A DNA stretch of 64,000 bases, from assembly GCA_030431975.1 (NCBI GenBank), contig JAUIHP010000023.1, forward strand, positions 1 to 64,000, given 5' to 3'. Below, one piece after another: positions 24,078-37,876 of the stretch; position 1 is the first letter of the stretch, and each line of letters begins with the position of its first letter. The notes under the pieces were generated by a model, which was given only the letters and a program-made list of their open reading frames with translations, was not told the origin of the DNA and did no database searches. The DNA is from a bacterium (GTDB lineage: Bacteria > Eisenbacteria > RBG-16-71-46 > CAIMUX01). Both the position numbers and the translations under genes were made by a program.

Positions 24078-24128
24078 ACGATCGAGAGTTCCCTGTGCGT
24101 CCCCTCGGACGTGCTGAGTGATGGAGCC

Positions 24129-24157
24129 GGGCCGGTTCGTTTCACGAACATCGGCCC
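24129..24157. other. GC-rich two-step hairpin between two secreted-protein genes
   Basis: GGGCCG (24129-24134) pairs with CGGCCC (24152-24157), and inside it GTTCGT pairs with ACGAAC around a 3-base loop, leaving a 2-base bulge. It sits 51 bp past one stop codon and 52 bp before the next start. There is no T-run; a Rho-type stop or processing site is as likely as an intrinsic terminator. Confidence 0.4.
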
Positions 24158-24209
24158 TGCTGCAGCACCTGCTCGAATTTTGGATGTGTGGCAAGTGGAG
24201 GTCAGCAGG

Positions 24210-25778
24210 ATGCTCCGGCTCCTTTTTCTCTGTTCCCTGGTTTTGGTTTTCGCGGCTTGTAGTGACGACTCCACGACGGTCGTGGAAGAACCTGCCGAAG
24301 CGTCCCGCGCTCCCGGCACTTTGACTGTCGAGTCCGTTGCGACGAACAACATCATCCTCGGTTGGCGGGACCTCTCCGACGACGAAAGCGGCTTTCAAAT
24401 CGAGAGACGGCCTGCGGGTGACGTCAGCGACTTCGAGGCGATCGGTACCGTCAATCTGAACGAAGTTCGCTACATTGATCGGACGGTAGTCTCCGGCAGT
24501 CTCTATGAGTATCAGGTCCGCTCCATCGCCGAGGACGAGAGGACGCTGAGTGACCCGAGCGAAACAGTCACCGCGAGGGCAACCCAGAACAACTCGCCCT
24601 CCGTCCCCTTCAATCCGTCTCCGGCCAATCTCACCCAGAACATCGCTCCCGACAGTTCGATCGTTCTGACCTGGGCCGCCACCGACGACGACGGAGAGAC
24701 ACTCCTCTACGACGTCCTCTTCGGTCAGACGCGCGCCTCCATGGAGCCGATCGCCACGGCGCAAACATCGACCGAACTCGCGCTATCGGATCTCCGCGTC
24801 GAACTCAATCGCTCCTACTTTTGGCAGGTCATCGTTCGCGACGGCGCCGGAGTGACGCGTCGCTCGCCGGTTTGGGTCTTCGTGGCGCGAGTCGAACGGG
24901 TCAACGTACCCAACGGCGAGTTCGTCATGGGGACGGACGAGAACACTCCGTTCTTCCACCCGGGCAATCCAGTCCGAGTGAGTGACTTCAATCTCGACAA
25001 GTTCGAAGTCACCAATCAGCAGTACGCGACGTTCCTCAATCAGTCCTGGGCGCAGGGACTGATTACGGTCGTCAACGGCGAAGTCTTCAACGGTGACCGG
25101 ACTCAGGTCCTACTGGACGTCGCTCCCCCGACGGCCCGCTCCCCCATCGGAGACCGGGACTCCGCCATTCGCTTCCTTACCGCCGAGCAACTCTTCGTCG
25201 TGGTCGAAGGTTGGGAAACGTATCCCGTTGTCGAGGTCTCGTGGTACGGGGCCAACGCGTATGCAAACTTCTTCAACCGGCGCCTTCCCTCCGAAGCGGA
25301 ATGGGAGAAAGCCGCCCGCGGCCTCAGCACCGAGCTGGGTACGAGGACGTTCATCCGTTCCGACACCGTCGTCATTGGGCTGGGATTCCCATATCCGTGG
25401 GGTCCCCAAGCGGATCTGACCCGCGGAAACTTCGACAACAGCGGTGACCCGTTCGAGAACCAGGGCAATGTCCGTTCGACGCCGGTCGGTTTCTATGACG
25501 GAACAGTTCGCAGCGGATACGCGACCAGCAACGGCGAGAGCTTCTACGGCGCGGCCGACATGGCCGGGAACGTCTGGGAGTGGGTCGACGACTGGCATGA
25601 CACCATCTACCGCCAGCCGCACACGCCGCCGACGACCGGAATCTACAAGGTCATTCGCGGAGGGTCCTACCGAGCCGGACTGGGGTCGGCTCGAGTCACG
25701 AATCGCAGTCTTCTCGGACCGTCCTCACGGGACCGGGCAGTGGGCTTCCGCACGGCGGCCACGGGGCTGACTCAGTAG
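24210..25778 (+). CDS. lipoprotein with two FN3 domains and an FGE/SUMF1-type domain
   Basis: 522 residues from the ATG at 24210, with AGCAGG just upstream. The lipobox LVFAAC puts Cys17 at the mature N-terminus. Two fibronectin-III-like domains (about 30-125 and 130-225) precede a formylglycine-generating-enzyme fold (about 230-520): GEFVMGTDEN, KFEVTNQQYATFLN, RRLPSEAEWEKAARG, MAGNVWEWVDDWH, VIRGGSY and GFRTA. No Cys is seen in the C-terminal catalytic region, so it is probably not an active sulfatase-maturing enzyme. It more likely binds a ligand or acts as a surface scaffold. Confidence 0.85.
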   Translation: MLRLLFLCSLVLVFAACSDDSTTVVEEPAEASRAPGTLTVESVATNNIILGWRDLSDDESGFQIERRPAGDVSDFEAIGTVNLNEVRYIDRTVVSGSLYEYQVRSIAEDERTLSDPSETVTARATQNNSPSVPFNPSPANLTQNIAPDSSIVLTWAATDDDGETLLYDVLFGQTRASMEPIATAQTSTELALSDLRVELNRSYFWQVIVRDGAGVTRRSPVWVFVARVERVNVPNGEFVMGTDENTPFFHPGNPVRVSDFNLDKFEVTNQQYATFLNQSWAQGLITVVNGEVFNGDRTQVLLDVAPPTARSPIGDRDSAIRFLTAEQLFVVVEGWETYPVVEVSWYGANAYANFFNRRLPSEAEWEKAARGLSTELGTRTFIRSDTVVIGLGFPYPWGPQADLTRGNFDNSGDPFENQGNVRSTPVGFYDGTVRSGYATSNGESFYGAADMAGNVWEWVDDWHDTIYRQPHTPPTTGIYKVIRGGSYRAGLGSARVTNRSLLGPSSRDRAVGFRTAATGLTQ

Positions 25779-26656: not shown

Positions 26657-27949
26657 CTAGGACCGGCCCGGCTGATAGAGTTCGTAGCGTCCAAACCCGT
26701 CGTAGTCGATGAAAACGAATCTCAGCCCGAGCTCCAGATAGATCCATACCTCAACGGCCAGGCCGTCCAGCCGACTCGGACGGGACTCGACCTCGTCCGC
26801 AGCTCCGTACTTGATGAAGATGCGTCCGCGGTCCGACTTCCAGCCCGGTTCGAGGATTCCAAAGGCCTCGTTGGCATGTCGAACGCGGGCAAAGAAGCTG
26901 TCCTTGAATTCATTGTCCGGAGTTCCCGGGGTCGGATCACGATCGCGCCAGAACTCGGCCCAGGCCTCGGCGCGTTGCGCTTCCGGAGCCGCCTCGAGTT
27001 TGCGGACTTCGTCCTGGTTCGCGATCAGACGGATCAGGTCGATGCTCTGCTCCATGTCGTTCGCCAACGAGACCATGGTTTCGTCCATCTGAAACTCGAA
27101 ACGGCGACGCGCCTTGTCACCATCGTTCTCGACTTCGACTTCGAAGATGTAGCTGCCCAGATACAGCGAACTCAGATCCGGGCGAACCCGGAACGGAACG
27201 CGGGTACCTCCGTGCCAGACCGCGGAATCACGGAACAGTTCGTCGCGACGGGCGTCGAGCACCCTCCACGTCAGCTTGACCGGGGAATCCGTCTCGCGGC
27301 GATAGACTTCACCGACGATACAAAGCTTGTCCAATGGTTCGCCGAAGCTGTGGTCGAGGACCCAGCGATTCGGGGGAAGGTCGATTGCGCTGTCGTCATC
27401 CGGCTCGCATTCCGCGACCCAGAGACTCGACACGCCGAGCTTTTCCTTGGTGTAGTTGGGTACTTCGAGTTCCCACGTCGTGCCGCTGCCTCTACCCGAT
27501 TGCCGTTCCCGGACGGAGACTTCCGCGCGCAGGCGTCCCGGCTCGACGGGGATCCGGACGACCTTCCGAAACTCCTCCTGCCGAGACTTCGTTTCCTTCT
27601 CGTCCTCGACACGAACGCTTTCCTCCCAGAGGTCGCCACCGATTTGGCGGTTGCCGTCGTAGAGAAGCATGACGAGGTTGAAGTCCGCCTCGTAGAACGT
27701 CGCGCCGTTCCGGTCGGCCTTTTCCTCGAAGAAAAGTTCCCCGTACGGAATGCGGAAAGAGAGTACGACCTCGGGCCGTCCCTCGTTCATGTAGTTGGCG
27801 GAGTTGACGATGAACCGCGGTCGGGAGGCACTGGGGAAAGGCGGAACATCGGTGATGTCGAAGCCGGCCTTGGCTTCCAAACTGAGGAGCCCCAGCAGAA
27901 GGACGAGGACACCACCTCGAATCCGCCAGGGTGTGAAGGGACACTTCAT
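26657..27949 (-). CDS. GWxTD domain-containing exported protein
   Basis: 430 residues from the ATG at 27949 (AAAGGA upstream; in-frame starts at 27955 and 27985 are alternatives). A signal segment (GGVLVLLLGLLSLEAKA) is followed by two beta-rich regions. The C-terminal GWxTD domain has FWRDRDPTPGTPDNEFK and the signature EPGWKSDRGRIFIKYG near 370-386, with Lys-Ser in place of the usual x-Thr. These proteins are frequent in Acidobacteria, Gemmatimonadetes and FCB lineages. Their role is unknown, and they are often encoded near envelope genes. Confidence 0.85.
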   Translation of the reverse strand: MKCPFTPWRIRGGVLVLLLGLLSLEAKAGFDITDVPPFPSASRPRFIVNSANYMNEGRPEVVLSFRIPYGELFFEEKADRNGATFYEADFNLVMLLYDGNRQIGGDLWEESVRVEDEKETKSRQEEFRKVVRIPVEPGRLRAEVSVRERQSGRGSGTTWELEVPNYTKEKLGVSSLWVAECEPDDDSAIDLPPNRWVLDHSFGEPLDKLCIVGEVYRRETDSPVKLTWRVLDARRDELFRDSAVWHGGTRVPFRVRPDLSSLYLGSYIFEVEVENDGDKARRRFEFQMDETMVSLANDMEQSIDLIRLIANQDEVRKLEAAPEAQRAEAWAEFWRDRDPTPGTPDNEFKDSFFARVRHANEAFGILEPGWKSDRGRIFIKYGAADEVESRPSRLDGLAVEVWIYLELGLRFVFIDYDGFGRYELYQPGRS

Positions 27950-28287
27950 GTACATCCTTTGGTCGACATGCTTTGCGGGTCGCATCCCCGGAGGCGTCCC
28001 GCGGCTAGGACTCTCTACCCGGAAAACCCCGATCCGCTCCCGCCATCCTGGGCCTCCGTCTGGTCGTATCGTAGAGGAGCACCCGTCCCGGCGACAGGGC
28101 CAATCCCGATCCTCCTAAGCCGTTGTCCGTTCGATCGTTGACCTGAATTGCGCCGTTTCCTCCATTTTCGGCTCTCGCGTTCGACTTCTGCAGGTGTGCG
28201 CCTCGGGATCCGATGATCGAAGCAGAGCCCGGGCGTCCCGGGGGCGGTGGTCGGGCATCCGATTCGAAGCGAGCTTGGGAGGAAACG
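27950..28287. other. 338-bp divergent intergenic region
   Basis: This separates the GWxTD gene (minus) from the histone-like fusion (plus). No gene is supported here. Candidate promoter elements for the plus strand are listed separately. Confidence 0.5.
28138..28166 (+). promoter_or_regulatory. possible promoter of the H1-like/AAA+ fusion gene
   Basis: TTGACC (28138-28143) matches the -35 consensus in 5 of 6 positions and is followed after 17 bases by TCCATT, a poor -10. It would give a leader of about 115 bases. Confidence 0.28.
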
Positions 28288-29520
28288 ATGGCAGCCAGGA
28301 AGAAGACGGCAAAGAAGGCCGCAAGCACACGGACCCAAGCCGCCCGTAAGACGGCCAAGAAGGCCGCGAAAAAAGCCGCTGGGACCGTGAAGAAGAAGTC
28401 CACGAAGAAGGCGGCCGCCGCAAAGACTGTGAAGAAGAAGTCCACGAAGAAGGCAGCTGCCGCGAAGACCCGCAAGAAGAGCACGCGTCGCTCCGCAGCC
28501 AAGTCCGCCGTAGCGAAAGCCGGAGCCCGCAAACCCGCTCGTCGTAAGGTTCGTAAGTCGACCTCTCCCGAGGCGCTTCTCACCGCTCAGTTCGCCGATA
28601 CGCTCCTTCACCTGGAAGACCGCTTGCAAGAGCGGATCGTCGGGAAGCGAAGCGCCATCGAGTCCATCGCGCGGATCATTCGGATCACCGGAACCGAACT
28701 CGACTTTCGCCCTGAGCGCCCCAACGGCGCGTTCCTTCTCGTCGGTCCGGAAGGCGTGGGCAAGAACGAGATCGCCTATGCCATCGGAGAAGTCCTACAG
28801 GGTTCGGAGGACGCCGTCGTTTCCATCGACCTCGGTGAGGTTGCCGAAGAAGAGGACGTGGCCAAGTTGGGGGCCACGCTCGTGCCGGGAAGCGAAACCC
28901 ACTTCCTCCCCGGAATGCTGACCCATCCGGTTCGAGAGAATCCGAAGACCATTCTGCTGCTTCGCGGCCTGGAGCAGGCCCATCCAACCTTTCATCGGCT
29001 GCTGCTGACCATTCTCGAACGCGGCCGCATCGACGACATGATTGGTCCGGTTCACTTCGATCAGACTCTGATCTTCGTCACCCTGACGTTGACGCGGGAA
29101 GAGCTCGCGCCGCAGGAAATCGGATTCGGAAGACCGTCCAAGAGCGAGGAGGACCGCCTCCGGGAACTCCTCGGACGCTTCGTCATGCCCGACCTTCTGG
29201 ACGCCTTCAACGAAGTCCTCGAGCTTCCGCCGCTCAGCGTGCCGGAGGTTCGGCAGATCGCGCGCTACAAGGTGGAGCGGGTCATTCGTCGAATGGCCAA
29301 GAAGAGGAAGGACATCGCGATCTCGGATTCCGTCTTCGACGAACTGATCACGGACGAACTGTGCCGGGATGGCGGGGCGAAGTTTCTCAACCGGACGTTG
29401 CAGGAGCGGTTGTTCAATCCTCTCGCCAGGTTTCTGCTGACGCACCAGTCGACCAGTCAGATCTCGATCGACTTCACGAAGGGATCGGTGGTCATCGATC
29501 CTCAGGAGCGCAAGTCGTGA
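28288..29520 (+). CDS. histone H1-like Lys/Ala tail fused to a degenerate ClpB-type AAA+ domain
   Basis: 410 residues from the ATG at 28288 (GGGAGG 4-5 bases upstream). Residues 1-93 are Lys/Ala/Arg/Thr-rich with AKKAA-type motifs and a duplicated 14-residue unit, resembling eukaryotic H1 tails and bacterial AlgP/H1-like proteins. Residues about 95-410 align by eye with the second AAA+ module of ClpB/ClpA. The key positions are altered: Walker A reads GPEGVGKN (153-160, Thr/Ser replaced by Asn), Walker B reads ILLLRG (222-227, Asp-Glu replaced by Arg-Gly), the pore loop GYVG is GSET, the Asn-Arg finger motif is Asp-Ala (305-306), and sensor 2 Arg is Lys365. It probably binds DNA or RNA and may not hydrolyse ATP. 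No neighbour suggests a partner. Confidence 0.85.
   Translation: MAARKKTAKKAASTRTQAARKTAKKAAKKAAGTVKKKSTKKAAAAKTVKKKSTKKAAAAKTRKKSTRRSAAKSAVAKAGARKPARRKVRKSTSPEALLTAQFADTLLHLEDRLQERIVGKRSAIESIARIIRITGTELDFRPERPNGAFLLVGPEGVGKNEIAYAIGEVLQGSEDAVVSIDLGEVAEEEDVAKLGATLVPGSETHFLPGMLTHPVRENPKTILLLRGLEQAHPTFHRLLLTILERGRIDDMIGPVHFDQTLIFVTLTLTREELAPQEIGFGRPSKSEEDRLRELLGRFVMPDLLDAFNEVLELPPLSVPEVRQIARYKVERVIRRMAKKRKDIAISDSVFDELITDELCRDGGAKFLNRTLQERLFNPLARFLLTHQSTSQISIDFTKGSVVIDPQERKS
28384..28467 (+). repeat. 42-bp tandem duplication in the H1-like tail
   Basis: Two adjacent 42-base copies (28384-28425 and 28426-28467) encode the same 14 residues, TVKKKSTKKAAAAK, with a few synonymous differences. The retained protein identity suggests the unit is selected at the protein level. 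Confidence 0.85.
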
Positions 29521-32395: not shown

Positions 32396-33247
32396 TCATG
32401 AAGGGAGCGAGTCGATGCGGGAGACGATTCCCTCGATGAGCGCTGCCAGCCGAGTGCCTGCCTGATCGGCCACTTCCACCACTTCGTCGTGCGAAAGAGC
32501 CGTCCGGGAGATCCCCGTCCCGTAGTTCGTGACCAGACTGAAAACCAAAGTACGCATTCCGAGTTCGCGGGCCTGCACGGCTTCGGGGACGGTCGACATC
32601 GAAGCCACGGTTCCGCCGAGTTTGCGCCAGGCTCGAACCTCCGCCGCCGTCTCGTAGTTGGGTCCGGTCGAGCCGACGAGAATGCCGTTGCGGAGAGGGA
32701 TACTGAGTTGCCGTGCGGTCTCTTCCGCAAGGTCTACGAGGTCGGGATCCGAGAGCGGCCCGCGCGGACGCCAGCGGTCTCTTCCCTGAAATGTCGGTTC
32801 GAGTTCTGCCGGCGCGAGGGGACGAAAGAAAAGGTTCAGCGCGTCGCGGTCGACGACGATCTCGCCGGGCCCGACAGAGGAATCGACGGAGCCTGCGGCA
32901 TTCGTCAGGATGAGCGTGTCGACTCCGAGGGCTCGGAGCAGACGTACATAGCGTGTGGCGACTCGTGGGGCCAAGCCTTCATAGGTGTGGACCCGCCCCT
33001 GCACGACCCAAAGAGAACGGCCTGCCCAGGTGCCGAAGTGGAGCTTCCCCTGATGTCCGGTCACGGTGCTCTCGGGATAACCCGGGATCTCGGAAGATGA
33101 AATCGTACGACGGTCTTCCAGGCGGTCCGCGATCGGGCCCAGGCCGCTGCCGAGAACGAGCCCGAGAGAGCTGCGTCCGCCGGCGCGGGCGGCAACCTCT
33201 TCGACGATCTTTGGGGTCGGCCAGTCTTCGTTCTTGAGATCACTCAT
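32396..33247 (-). CDS. purine-nucleoside phosphorylase
   Basis: 283 residues from the ATG at 33247; an in-frame ATG at 33304 would overlap the permease gene. LGLVLGSGLGPIADRL, GHQGKLHFG, the LILTNAAGSV block, GSTGPNYETAAEVR and the SMSTVPEAV motif are the phosphate, base and ribose sites of trimeric PNP. It splits purine nucleosides to base plus ribose 1-phosphate. It is the last gene of the uptake/salvage operon, directly after the transporter. Confidence 0.95.
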   Translation of the reverse strand: MSDLKNEDWPTPKIVEEVAARAGGRSSLGLVLGSGLGPIADRLEDRRTISSSEIPGYPESTVTGHQGKLHFGTWAGRSLWVVQGRVHTYEGLAPRVATRYVRLLRALGVDTLILTNAAGSVDSSVGPGEIVVDRDALNLFFRPLAPAELEPTFQGRDRWRPRGPLSDPDLVDLAEETARQLSIPLRNGILVGSTGPNYETAAEVRAWRKLGGTVASMSTVPEAVQARELGMRTLVFSLVTNYGTGISRTALSHDEVVEVADQAGTRLAALIEGIVSRIDSLPS

Positions 33248-33278
33248 TCGAAGTTCTCGGTCCCTTTCTGGAACGGCA

Positions 33279-34184
33279 TCACGATCGCGCCCCGCTTCGG
33301 TCATACGGCTCGCCCAGATGCCGCGGCGGATGCGCGCGGCCGATCCAACCGGCCAGCACGACGAGAGTGACCAGATACGGAAGCATCTGCAAGAACTGTG
33401 TCGGTATCCACTCCGCAGAAACGCGAATCTGCAAAGTCTCCGCAGCTCCGAAGAGTAGGCAGGCCAAGGCGACCTTGTAGGGGTGCCACTTCCCCACGAT
33501 CATGGCGGCGAGCGCAATGTAGCCGCGACCGTTCGACATGCCGTCCGTGAAACTGTGTTGTTCCGTCACCAGCCAGGTACCGGCGAGTCCGCCCAAGGCT
33601 CCGCTCAGAAGAACGCCGGCGAAACGGTAGCCGTCGACCGACAGCCCAGCGCCGTCCAGGGCCCGCGGTCCGTCGCCCGCGGCGCGCAAAGCCAAACCGA
33701 ATCCGCTGCGAAAAAGCAGCAGGTACGCCAGGATCACGAGGCCGGCAGCCATCCAGAACAAGGGGTGTCCCAACAGCTGCAGGAACGCGGCGCGCCCTTC
33801 GAAGACGGACGAAACACCTTCAAACCGAGGCGAGTTGCTGGCGCTGCCGTAGAGAACCTTGAGACCGCCCCGCGTCGCGCCCAGCGCGAGCATGTTGATG
33901 GCCAGGCCGCTTAAGATCTGGTCGGCTCGTCCCCAGATCGTGATCACGCCGTGGAGCGCTGCGAGCAACATCCCCACGGCCATTCCACCGAGGACACCGA
34001 CCCACGCACTTCCGGTAGCCAACGTGATGACTGCGGCTCCGAAAGCGCCACCAAGAAGAATGCCTTCCAAGGCGATGTTGATCACGCCCCCGCGTTCGGA
34101 AAAGGTGCCGCCCAGCGCCGCGAGGACGTAGGGCACGGAGATCCGGAGCACCTGGGCCAGGAAGGCCAGAGTGATCTCGATCAC
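33279..34184 (-). CDS. nucleoside ABC transporter permease (NupC/YufQ type)
   Basis: 301 residues, about eight to nine membrane segments. The family pattern is TFSERGGVINIALEGILLGGAFGA near 26-49 and NGRGYIALAAMIVGKW near 225-240, as in BMP-family nucleoside importers. It forms a heterodimeric channel with the permease encoded upstream; the two genes overlap by 4 bp. Confidence 0.92.
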   Translation of the reverse strand: MIEITLAFLAQVLRISVPYVLAALGGTFSERGGVINIALEGILLGGAFGAAVITLATGSAWVGVLGGMAVGMLLAALHGVITIWGRADQILSGLAINMLALGATRGGLKVLYGSASNSPRFEGVSSVFEGRAAFLQLLGHPLFWMAAGLVILAYLLLFRSGFGLALRAAGDGPRALDGAGLSVDGYRFAGVLLSGALGGLAGTWLVTEQHSFTDGMSNGRGYIALAAMIVGKWHPYKVALACLLFGAAETLQIRVSAEWIPTQFLQMLPYLVTLVVLAGWIGRAHPPRHLGEPYDRSGARS

Positions 34185-35326
34185 GTCCGTCCCTCCCCTG
34201 CCGTCCGTCGCGCTTCGAAGACGATAAAGAGAATGAGGATGACAGCCTGCAAAACATCCAGGACTTCACGCGGGACGGTTCGATTGACGACGAACCCTCC
34301 GTAGGACAACGCACCGAAGAAGATGGCCGACGGGATCACCGCAAGCGCGCGGTTGCGAGCCAGTAGAGCCACGGCGATGCCCAGGAAGCCGGCGCCGCCG
34401 GTGAATCCCTCTTCGAAGTAATGTTTGAAACCGAGAACGAAGCTGGCCCCGCCGAGTCCGGCCAGAGCACCGGCTCCGCTCATGGCAAACGCCGTCAGAC
34501 GTCCGACCGGCAGACCGGCGTAGCGCGCGGCGCCCGGTCCCTCTCCCAGAATCTGTAGGGACAGTCCCCACGGTGTGAAGCGCAACCAGGCGGCAAGAGC
34601 CACCGCACACAGAAGCGCGAGGAAGAGTGCCGCGTTGACCGGCGCCCCTCGAAACGCCGGAACGAAGTCCGAGAGACGAAACAGGTGGGCCGACTCCACG
34701 ATTTCCGCCGTGCGCACCGTTTCCGGCAGGGCCAGTCCGCGAACGAGCAGGTAGTTGACGACGGCAAACGCAATGAAGTTGAGGAGAATCGTGACGATGA
34801 CTTCATGGCTTCCGGTCCGCGCCTTGAGAACTCCGGGGATGCCGCCCCAGATTCCCCCCGCCAAAGCGCCGGCTCCCAAAGCCAGGATGAGCGCGATCGG
34901 TCCGGCACTTGGAGCCACCGCGCCGACGGCAGCCATGGCCAAACCACCGACCGCCATCTGTCCTTCGGCTCCGATATTGAAGAGCCGCGCCTGAAAGGCG
35001 AAGGCCACCGAAAGGCCGCAGAAGATGAGCGGCGTCGCGCGATAGAGAACCTGCCCCCACCCAAAGGACGAACCGACGGTTCCGGACCAGAGTTGTCCGT
35101 AGAAATCGAGCGGCGACACTTGTAGCAAGGCGGCGATGATTCCGCCCAGGGCCAAGCCGAGCGAAACGGAAAGAAGGACCGGAGCGGCCACGCGAAGTCG
35201 GCGACGCAGCGTCTTCGAATTCATCAGGGTTGTGGCCCGGTTCTTCGGCGCGCCCGGCGTGCCGGGGGTTTCCGGGTTCCTCGGTGTCCTCGGCGAACCC
35301 GGTGTTCTCGGCATCGATCCTGTCAT
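34181..35326 (-). CDS. nucleoside ABC transporter permease (NupB/YufP type)
   Basis: 381 residues, starting at the ATG at 35326 that overlaps the ATPase stop (ATGA). Residues 1-33 are a repeated Pro-x-Thr-Pro-Gly tract coded by a short repeat at about 35240-35315; a typical permease N-terminus begins at the second Met (35224). Core blocks are FNIGAEGQMAVGGLAMAAVG and LLNFIAFAVVNYLL. It pairs with the next permease. The extension could be ignored if translation starts at 35224. Confidence 0.9.
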   Translation of the reverse strand: MTGSMPRTPGSPRTPRNPETPGTPGAPKNRATTLMNSKTLRRRLRVAAPVLLSVSLGLALGGIIAALLQVSPLDFYGQLWSGTVGSSFGWGQVLYRATPLIFCGLSVAFAFQARLFNIGAEGQMAVGGLAMAAVGAVAPSAGPIALILALGAGALAGGIWGGIPGVLKARTGSHEVIVTILLNFIAFAVVNYLLVRGLALPETVRTAEIVESAHLFRLSDFVPAFRGAPVNAALFLALLCAVALAAWLRFTPWGLSLQILGEGPGAARYAGLPVGRLTAFAMSGAGALAGLGGASFVLGFKHYFEEGFTGGAGFLGIAVALLARNRALAVIPSAIFFGALSYGGFVVNRTVPREVLDVLQAVILILFIVFEARRTAGEGRT

Positions 35327-36822
35327 CGCCGCGACTCAGAGGGACCCAGACCCAACAATGCGGACTGCATTCCGTCGGTATCGATCTCGTTCCGCGCCGC
35401 CTCGTAGAAGCTACGACCCCGGTAAAGAATGTGAATACGATCGCAGACGGCTTCCAGCTCGGAAAGGTCGGCCGTAATCAAAAGTATGGCCGCTCCCCTC
35501 GCCCGTTCTTCCAAAAGCCGGCCATGCAGAAACTGAACGGCGCCAAGATCGACACCGCGCGTTGGATGAACGGCCAGTAACAACGGAGGTCTTTGCGAAA
35601 GCTCCCGTCCGGCGATGAAACGCTGTTGGTTTCCGCCCGAGAAACTGCGGGCCGGGAGGGTAGCGTCACCCGGTCTGACACCGTACACGTCGATGATCTC
35701 GGCTGCATGAGCACGCATCTTGTCCCAACGCAGCACCCCCGCACTGGAGAACGGCGACCGGTCATGTCGGCCGAGCGCTCCGTTTTCGACCAGCGAACGC
35801 CCGAGGATCAAACCTTCCCGGTGACGGTCTTCCGGAATGACTCCGATCGAGCGCCGAAACTTTCGGACGTCCCGCTTCACCGGTTCGCCCATGAACCGAA
35901 TCTCTCCCGACACCAGCGGCTCGTATCCGAGCAGCGCGGAGGCCAGTTCCTTTTGCCCGTTTCCTTCCACGCCGCCAACCCCGACGATCTGCCCTTCGGA
36001 GACCGTAAGAGACAAGCCGTCGAGGCGGCCCAGTGTAGCGTCGCGCACCGCAAGGACCTCGCGACCGGGAACCTGCGCACTCCACTGCGCCGGCCGTGGC
36101 GGCGAACCGCCGACGATCAGACGCACCAGACGTTCGGTGTCGACATCCCGTCGTGGAAGTGTTTCCACAACCCGACCGCCTCGCAGCACAGTGACGCGGT
36201 CGGCCACGGCCAGAACTTCGGGAAGCTTGTGACTGACGAAGATGATGGAGCGGCCTTCCGCTGCCAGGGTGCGCATCGTCTGTAACAGGCTTTCGACCTC
36301 GGAAGCCGCAAGGACCGCCGTCGGCTCGTCAAGAATGAGGATTCGGGAATCGCGGTAGAGCAGCCCGAGAATCTCGACCCGCTCCCTCTCTCCCAGGGAC
36401 AGATCGTCCACAGGAACATCGAGCTCGACGTCCAGCCGGTAGCGTTGCATCAGCTCGCGAATGCGTTTGCGGTCTCCCCGTAAGGAACCGAAGAGGCCTC
36501 GTTTTCCGGCGCGGCCGAGGGCGATGTTCTCGTATCCGGTGAGGGTGGGGACCTGGTGAAAGTGCTGCGCACAAAGTCCGACCCCGTGCCGCAACATCGT
36601 CGCGGGAGTCGCGTCGCGAACCGGAGCTTCGTCGATGAGAACGGTTCCCGCGTCCGGTCGAACGAAGCCGGAAAGAATTCCCATGAGGGTCGACTTGCCT
36701 GCGCCGTTCTCACCGACCAGCGCGTGCACTTCACCGGGCAGGATGGAGAAGCTGACCTGCTCGTTGGCCGTGACCCGGCCATACTTCTTCGTGACTTCGA
36801 CGAAACGGGCGGTGGGAATCAT
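35323..36822 (-). CDS. nucleoside ABC transporter ATP-binding protein, two cassettes (NupA/YufO type)
   Basis: 499 residues from the ATG at 36822. The first cassette has GENGAGKS (about 39-46), a LSLGERERVEIL signature and ILILDEPTAVL. The second has GVEGNGQKELA in place of a classical Walker A, as is normal for this sugar/nucleoside family, and FSGGNQQRFIAGREL. It energises the two permeases. Coupled by overlap to the downstream permease and placed 22 bp after the binding-protein gene. Confidence 0.94.
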   Translation of the reverse strand: MIPTARFVEVTKKYGRVTANEQVSFSILPGEVHALVGENGAGKSTLMGILSGFVRPDAGTVLIDEAPVRDATPATMLRHGVGLCAQHFHQVPTLTGYENIALGRAGKRGLFGSLRGDRKRIRELMQRYRLDVELDVPVDDLSLGERERVEILGLLYRDSRILILDEPTAVLAASEVESLLQTMRTLAAEGRSIIFVSHKLPEVLAVADRVTVLRGGRVVETLPRRDVDTERLVRLIVGGSPPRPAQWSAQVPGREVLAVRDATLGRLDGLSLTVSEGQIVGVGGVEGNGQKELASALLGYEPLVSGEIRFMGEPVKRDVRKFRRSIGVIPEDRHREGLILGRSLVENGALGRHDRSPFSSAGVLRWDKMRAHAAEIIDVYGVRPGDATLPARSFSGGNQQRFIAGRELSQRPPLLLAVHPTRGVDLGAVQFLHGRLLEERARGAAILLITADLSELEAVCDRIHILYRGRSFYEAARNEIDTDGMQSALLGLGPSESRR

Positions 36823-36844
36823 CCGCCGTCCACTCCAACTTGGC

Positions 36845-37876
36845 TCAACGGATCGGCACCGTCGTCTTCTTGGAAATGATCTCCTGGCGCATGGACTCGA
36901 CCAGGCTCCTCTTCTCGTCATCGATCCAGCGGGCGTTCTGCTCGCCGAAGACGTAGTCGACCCCGCCCTCGGCCAGACCGAGAACTTGAACGCCGCCGAC
37001 GAACGTGCCGTCGACGACCGACTTCACCGTCTCGAAGACGGCAACATCGACTTCTTTCGTCATCGAGGTAAGGATGTGTTCGGGAGCCTCGGACTGCTGG
37101 TCTGAGTCAACTCCGATGGCCAGGATGTCCCGCTCGCGCGCCGCTTCAAACACTCCCAGGCCGGTCGAACCCGACGCGTGAAAGATGACATCGGCGCCCT
37201 GATCGATCTGGGCGAGCGCGAGTTCTTTACCTTTGGTCGGATTCTGGAAGGCGTCACCCGTGACGCCGGCATAGCGAACCAGAACCTTGCCTTCGGGACG
37301 GACGCGTTCAAAGCCCGCACGGTATCCCGCCTCGAACTTGTGAATCAGTGGAATGTCCATCCCTCCGACGAAGCCCCCGACACCGGACTCCGAAACCAGC
37401 GCAGCCAACGCGCCCACGAGGTAGGAACCTTCCTCTTCGCGAAACTTGATGCCGAGAAGATTGGAAGGAAGAGCGTCTCCTTCGTTCCAAGTAATGTCGA
37501 TGCAGGCGAACTTCTTCTCGGGAAACTCCTGGGCGACCTGTTTGATGTCATCCGTGAAGAGAAAGCCGACGCCGATGATCAGATCGAAGTCACCCGCTGC
37601 GAAAATGCGCAGTGCGGCTTCCCTCTCGGAACCTTCGGCGGGTTCGATGTACTCGAAGGCAGCGTCGAGTTCGCCCTTGGCCTGTAGGAGTCCGCGGTGT
37701 GCGGCATCGTTGAAGGACTTGTCGCCAAGACCGCCGATGTCAAAGACCAGGCCGACACTGACCGAGCCCTCGTTCTTTGATGTCTCGCCTCCTCCGCTGC
37801 ACGCTGAGACCAAAAGGACGAGAGCAGAAACACAGAAGAGCCGGACCCCGAACCGTCGGGCTACCATCGTCGCCAT
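36845..37876 (-). CDS. BMP-family nucleoside-binding lipoprotein
   Basis: 343 residues from the ATG at 37876, which has AAGGAG 8 bases upstream; a TTG two codons earlier is too close to it. The lipobox LLVSAC gives lipid Cys26. VGLVFDIGGLGDKSFNDAAHRGL, GVGFLFTDDI, GFVGGMDIPLIHKFEAGYRAG and IFHASGSTGLGVFEAA are Bmp/PnrA hallmarks. It captures purine nucleosides for the ABC importer encoded next to it. Confidence 0.93.
   Translation of the reverse strand: MATMVARRFGVRLFCVSALVLLVSACSGGGETSKNEGSVSVGLVFDIGGLGDKSFNDAAHRGLLQAKGELDAAFEYIEPAEGSEREAALRIFAAGDFDLIIGVGFLFTDDIKQVAQEFPEKKFACIDITWNEGDALPSNLLGIKFREEEGSYLVGALAALVSESGVGGFVGGMDIPLIHKFEAGYRAGFERVRPEGKVLVRYAGVTGDAFQNPTKGKELALAQIDQGADVIFHASGSTGLGVFEAARERDILAIGVDSDQQSEAPEHILTSMTKEVDVAVFETVKSVVDGTFVGGVQVLGLAEGGVDYVFGEQNARWIDDEKRSLVESMRQEIISKKTTVPIR

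Follow-up and report, generated by a model that had tools for sequence, protein, structure and literature searches.

The gene at positions 28288 to 29520 on the forward strand of the window (the entire 64,000-nucleotide stretch analyzed here) encodes a 410-residue protein that combines a basic, disordered N-terminal tail with a catalytically degenerate Clp-type AAA+ module. Sequence comparisons place this protein in a stand-alone, order-specific family of apparently hydrolysis-dead derivatives of the second AAA+ ring of the unfoldases that partner ClpP. We regard the chances as about even that the family functions as an ATPase-independent cap or tether that docks on ClpP. The docking-type loop that points to this function was missed in an earlier note on this DNA, which described a histone H1-like tail fused to a ClpB-like module.

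The ATG at 28288 is preceded by a Shine-Dalgarno-like GGGAGG (28277 to 28282, forward strand), approximately 6 bases upstream. The gene is solitary on its own strand in the window and therefore has no operon partner to hint at its function. It is divergent to a syntenic gene for a protein with a GWxTD domain (26657 to 27985, reverse strand; assigned from synteny and Pfam), which is considered here as context outside the system. This gene order is conserved among the orthologues, with pfk between the two genes in about half of the genomes, and genes for a purine nucleoside phosphorylase and transporters often follow downstream. A Pfam scan of the neighbors (PNP, transport permease, proC, PFK, and GWxTD protein) described a conserved housekeeping neighborhood. 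A run of genes conserved across the order, which includes a BPD_transp_2 transport permease and a purine nucleoside phosphorylase, is located on the reverse strand of the window (35323 to 36921, 34181 to 35326, 33279 to 34184, and 32396 to 33304). The forward-strand gene at 24111 to 25778 encodes a protein with Fibronectin type III and FGE-sulfatase (formylglycine-generating enzyme-like) domains and is syntenic in two relatives.

The AAA+ module, with large and small subdomains, spans residues 97 to 405 (28576 to 29502, forward strand) according to Pfam, AlphaFold, and Foldseek. The profile search that the earlier note had proposed returned AAA_2 (residues 144 to 307, E = 2.9e-20) and ClpB_D2-small (residues 316 to 390, E = 4.4e-8), both above the Pfam gathering score and both matched by all nine family members. 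NCBIfam profiles aligned the module with the second ring of ClpB, ClpV, and ClpA at scores far below each full-length cut-off, and the best of them, TIGR03346 (ClpB), matched at 6e-48, likewise far under its cut-off. The closest relative in a sequence search of the PDB was ClpC (2.3e-39). The AlphaFold monomer model was mostly confident over the module, with pLDDT blocks mainly of 85 to 93, and Foldseek searches with this model retrieved Clp second rings, among them the ClpB C-terminal domain 4fcw (E = 3.5e-26; TM 0.81 by target length). The protein has this single AAA+ module only, without a second ring or a middle domain.

All of the replaced residues named in the earlier note were found as it had described them. 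Walker A reads GPEGVGKN (residues 153 to 160, 28744 to 28767; this and the following features are on the forward strand). Its P-loop, GxxGVGK, is invariant in the family save for the x positions, including Lys159, and the next residue is Asn in four of the nine orthologues, among them the window protein (Asn160), and Thr or Ser in the others. The Walker B Asp-Glu is replaced by Arg226-Gly227 (28963 to 28968), with Arg in 8/9 orthologues, Gln in 1/9, and Gly in 9/9. The pore-1 loop, GAPPGYVG in Clp proteins, has degenerated to TLVPGSET (residues 197 to 204, 28876 to 28899), with Ser202 in place of the tyrosine, which is lost in all nine orthologues. The arginine-finger position is Ala306 (29203 to 29205; Ala in 8/9, Arg in one), and sensor 2 is Lys365. 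Two further changes had gone unmentioned: the sensor 1 region is T265-L266-T267 (29080 to 29088), in which the Asn of Clp proteins is Thr267 in the window protein and Arg in all eight of its orthologues, and Lys takes the place of Gln at position 120 in 9/9. In the reference set of 41 full-length Clps, Walker B, the sensor 1 Asn, the pore Tyr, and the arginine finger were kept in 100%. Recurrence of the same replacements in nine orthologues is a pattern far beyond chance. Judged from these residues, it is very unlikely that the family hydrolyzes ATP, and nucleotide binding is possible. The previous interpretation, a pseudo-ATPase that is not the product of simple decay, was thus borne out by the identical replacements across the nine orthologues. 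Homologues that keep both sites, Walker B and the arginine finger, had been suggested as grounds for its refutation; none was intact at both sites, with one orthologue keeping the finger Arg.

The loop between sensor 1 and the arginine finger carries the tripeptide IGF (residues 278 to 280, 29119 to 29127, forward strand), which is of the ClpP-docking type, is invariant in 9/9 orthologues, and lies 10 to 11 residues past sensor 1 in the family. The corresponding tripeptide is IGL, 10 residues past sensor 1, in Escherichia coli ClpA and LGF, MGF, VGF, or FGF, 10 to 12 residues past sensor 1, in ClpC-type proteins. No docking tripeptide was found in E. coli ClpB or in the ClpB-type proteins of the compared genomes, and loop-bearing and loop-less Clps separated cleanly within the compared set. 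An LGF loop is the usual mark that distinguishes ClpC from ClpB (PMC10149685). Conservation of IGF was 1.00, and its flanks, with a mean of 0.46, were the least conserved windows of the module. The loop had low pLDDT in the AlphaFold model (blocks of 57 and 70), as is to be expected for IGF-type loops, which are flexible and dock in hydrophobic sites of ClpP (PMC9035409). ClpX can bind ClpP once it has bound ATP, with no need for hydrolysis, and ADEP opens the ClpP gate by occupying the docking sites (PMC9035409). Because the IGF loop is invariant in the family and absent from ClpB, the family appears to have been derived from a ClpP partner rather than from ClpB.

Of the 11 genomes of the order, 9 yielded one stand-alone orthologue each in whole-genome searches; the 36 other genomes of the phylum yielded none. 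The eight other orthologues are 44 to 48% identical to the window protein over the core. Orthologues scored 475 to 540 bits against the family profile; the next-best matches were full-length Clps, at no more than 222 bits within the phylum and no more than 246 bits in a wider sample of 385 genomes. The nine orthologues formed a single clade with 100/100 support. In a wider tree the family grouped with an active, loop-bearing Clp that has a TPR-like N-terminus (L186, G099:C4:216000-220500), with 100/97 support on the complementary side, a placement that is suggestive only because both branches are long. The genome that encodes L186 also encodes a ClpP2-like protein with an acidic stretch. The earlier label of ClpB-like holds insofar as the module is kin to all Clp second rings; descent from ClpB is not supported, given the IGF loop and a tree that pairs the family with a loop-bearing active Clp. 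A phage origin was rejected, as viral relatives with a long match were full-length Clps with intact motifs. Rough dN/dS was below 1 in every orthologue pair (0.14 to 0.78), was 0.14 to 0.35 in many of the closer pairs, and was lowest in the well-matched f3/f4 pairs, values that are indicative only, with synonymous sites near saturation and composition differing.

The basic tail (residues 1 to 96, 28288 to 28575, forward strand) was delimited by composition and predicted disorder. The first 97 residues include 28 Lys, 10 Arg, 28 Ala, one acidic residue, and zero aromatic residues, and pLDDT in the AlphaFold model was below 50 nearly throughout to residue 96. The Lys/Ala tail of about 93 residues recognized earlier is therefore present, as about 96 disordered Lys/Ala/Arg-rich residues. 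Basic tails are found in 9/9 orthologues, with lengths of 42 to 152 residues and compositions that range from Lys/Ala to Arg/Ser/Thr/Pro. The NCBIfam search gave no significant match to an H1-like family model (best NF038053, E = 0.45, under its cut-off). The idea that the tail repeats an H1 protein encoded elsewhere in the genome was ruled out: the lone second match was at chance level, in a stretch that reads, by eye, as a sensor-kinase gene in another frame. A nucleoid (H1-like) role is possible as the function of the tail, either alone or as part of a ClpP cap.

ClpP is present in all genomes of the order, and a second, divergent ClpP (ClpP2) was found in 9 of the 11 genomes of the order and in 0 of the 36 other genomes of the phylum. 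The family gene and ClpP2 occur together in eight genomes, each occurs without the other in one genome, and neither was found in G003. This co-restriction to one order amounts to one phylogenetic event and not to independent co-occurrence. Co-loss in G003 was dropped as evidence for a pair because that genome is uninformative: its contig breaks inside the adjacent pfk, where the family gene should start, and trmB was also not found there. The ClpP2 gene of the source genome (L130 4679-5308; G000:C41 about 130678-131307) encodes an acidic N-terminal tail and an intact triad. Across the order, ClpP2 keeps the Ser-His-Asp triad and is catalytically complete, its acidic N-terminal tail is 35 to 53 residues long with 12 to 23 Asp/Glu, and the canonical axial hairpin sequence LVPxVIEQxxRGER is absent. 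Under the position numbering that we assume for the ClpP docking pocket (60, 62, 82, 112, and 114), Phe82, Phe/Tyr112, and Leu114 are conserved, Tyr60 is replaced by Thr, and Tyr62 is replaced by Val, Ile, Leu, or Phe. Given the replacement of Tyr60 and Tyr62, the docking surface of ClpP2 may be different. In Staphylococcus aureus ClpP, the Y63A substitution, which we take as equivalent to position Tyr62, yields a constitutively open protease (PMC9035409).

The pairing of a basic-tailed pseudo-motor with the acidic-tailed ClpP2 of the same order is attractive. In most genomes the ClpP2 gene follows mrp-like and trmB-like genes; it is unlinked to the family gene. No covariation between the tail charges of the two proteins was apparent by eye, and some genomes outside the order, which lack the family gene, encode ClpP2-like proteins whose acidic stretches are shorter. 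A structure prediction for ClpP2 was set aside (pLDDT 47.5, shallow alignment).

Two other Clp proteins of the source genome were recorded. One is an unusual large Clp-like protein (L005, G000:C11:46619-50449; open frame of 1266 residues) with a VGF loop and a noncanonical pore loop, GQKDGPVATR. The other is a full ClpV/TssH-type ATPase (L004, G000:C52:154411-158259; TIGR03345, 1164 bits, over the cut-off), which suggests a type VI or related contractile system in the source genome.

In the explanation that we favor, the AAA+ modules would dock on the face of ClpP through their IGF loops, in a ring that is probably held together by nucleotide that is bound and unhydrolyzed. The family protein would not pull substrates, because Walker B, the arginine finger, and the pore tyrosine are gone. 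The basic tail would carry the docked ClpP to a polyanion (DNA, RNA, or polyphosphate) or, alternatively, would pair with the acidic N-terminal tail of ClpP2, and the protein would gate, localize, or compete for ClpP. In its most specific form the proposal is that a motor-less ring docks without ATP hydrolysis and guides or gates ClpP2 through the basic tail, so that a Clp protease would be tied to DNA, RNA, or a charge-paired gate rather than to a translocating motor; here we judge the balance to tip slightly to the negative. We infer docking, ring formation, the choice of ClpP, nucleotide binding, and polyanion binding, and the earlier suggestion of a decoy partner of a Clp ring is thereby sharpened to a putative partner of the ClpP protease. 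Weighing against the cap or tether is that the tripeptide is a short motif and that docking is read from sequence. The separate locations of the family gene and ClpP2, their single shared phylogenetic distribution, the uncorrelated tail charges, the ClpP2-like proteins outside the order, and the altered ClpP2 pocket also count against it.

It is unlikely, in our estimation, that the family has no link with ClpP and is instead a nucleoid- or RNA-associated pseudo-AAA+ protein, in which an H1-like tail condenses nucleic acid and the module merely oligomerizes. Such a role would be consistent with the disordered basic tail, mostly Lys, Ala, Arg, and Ser, in all nine orthologues, with the invariant basic residues of the small domain (Arg326, Lys328, and Arg335), and with AlgP, whose H1-like tail binds DNA and organizes polyphosphate granules (PMC9239181). 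However, it leaves IGF, the lone invariant island in the most variable loop, unexplained, and the tail varies widely in length and composition and matches no H1 profile. The complete AAA+ fold and the intact ClpC-type, ClpB-type, and ClpV-type proteins encoded in the same genome would also suit a regulatory subunit that joins an active Clp, either ClpC or the unusual large one, in mixed rings and poisons or modulates those rings. We consider this quite improbable: a protein without a first ring fits poorly in two-ring hexamers, the intersubunit arginine finger is missing, and the family shares approximately 30% identity with the host Clps and sits on a very long stem in the tree.

It seems very improbable that the family associates with polyphosphate or ribosomes and binds, with no need of Mg, a nucleotide such as ATP or (p)ppGpp in a pocket where the new arginines at Walker B and sensor 1 hold the phosphates. 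The P-loop Lys is invariant, and two conserved arginines (226 and 267, each in 8/9) extend into the phosphate site, but the window protein lacks the sensor 1 Arg, and this explanation is silent on IGF. Such a pocket may nevertheless be compatible with a ClpP cap or tether. Plain decay of a duplicated clp gene would account for the loss of catalytic residues, yet it is already contradicted by nine open orthologues with identical replacements, conserved gene order, and dN/dS below 1, and a decaying pseudogene was ruled out on these grounds as next to impossible.

ClpP partners have been known as ATP-driven unfoldases. If the cap or tether explanation is true, evolution can turn AAA+ rings into passive caps or tethers for a chambered protease, and the family would provide a natural reagent for separating docking and gate opening from unfolding. 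The acidic-tailed second ClpP is flagged as unstudied. The fold and the docking motif were already known; the combination is apparently new, in that no equivalent order-wide family that has lost the motor, kept the ClpP plug, and carries a basic tail was found in the open-access literature.

Among known systems, the second ring of ClpA and ClpC shares the fold, the small domain, the P-loop Lys, and a ClpP-docking tripeptide at the same place. In contrast, the family has a single ring in which Walker B, sensor 1, the pore Tyr, and the arginine finger are replaced, and a basic tail substitutes for the N-domain and first ring. An [LIVM]G[FL] motif after sensor 1 is common to the family and the partner unfoldases ClpA, ClpC, and ClpX, whereas the pore-1 aromatic residue is absent from the family. 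The second ring of ClpB also shares the fold, and its profile, TIGR03346, scored best, but ClpB lacks an IGF loop and, unlike the family, combines a middle domain with two active rings. L186, a 1118-residue frame from an unrelated genome, resembles the family in its LDxxPERPDG spacing, its LGF loop, and its position in the tree; it differs in having intact catalytic residues, two rings, and an N-terminus that is TPR-like by eye. AlgP and other bacterial H1-like proteins likewise have a long, disordered, Lys/Ala-rich tail (PMC9239181). The AlgP tail, however, consists of C-terminal KPAA repeats on a helical domain with no AAA+ module, and the family has no profile match to these proteins. DolB of the Dodola defense system is related through AAA_2, and the family gives weak matches to the PADLOC profiles DolB and PDC-M37B. 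In contrast to DolB, the family resides in a conserved housekeeping neighborhood with no defense context seen in the Pfam domains of its neighbors, and a defense role appears unlikely, the PADLOC matches being only generic and weak. PA28 and Bpa/PafE are non-ATPase rings that dock on 20S proteasomes independently of ATP. The proposed cap resembles them as a non-ATPase ring on a chambered protease and differs in that their folds are unrelated to it and their partners are 20S proteasomes rather than ClpP.
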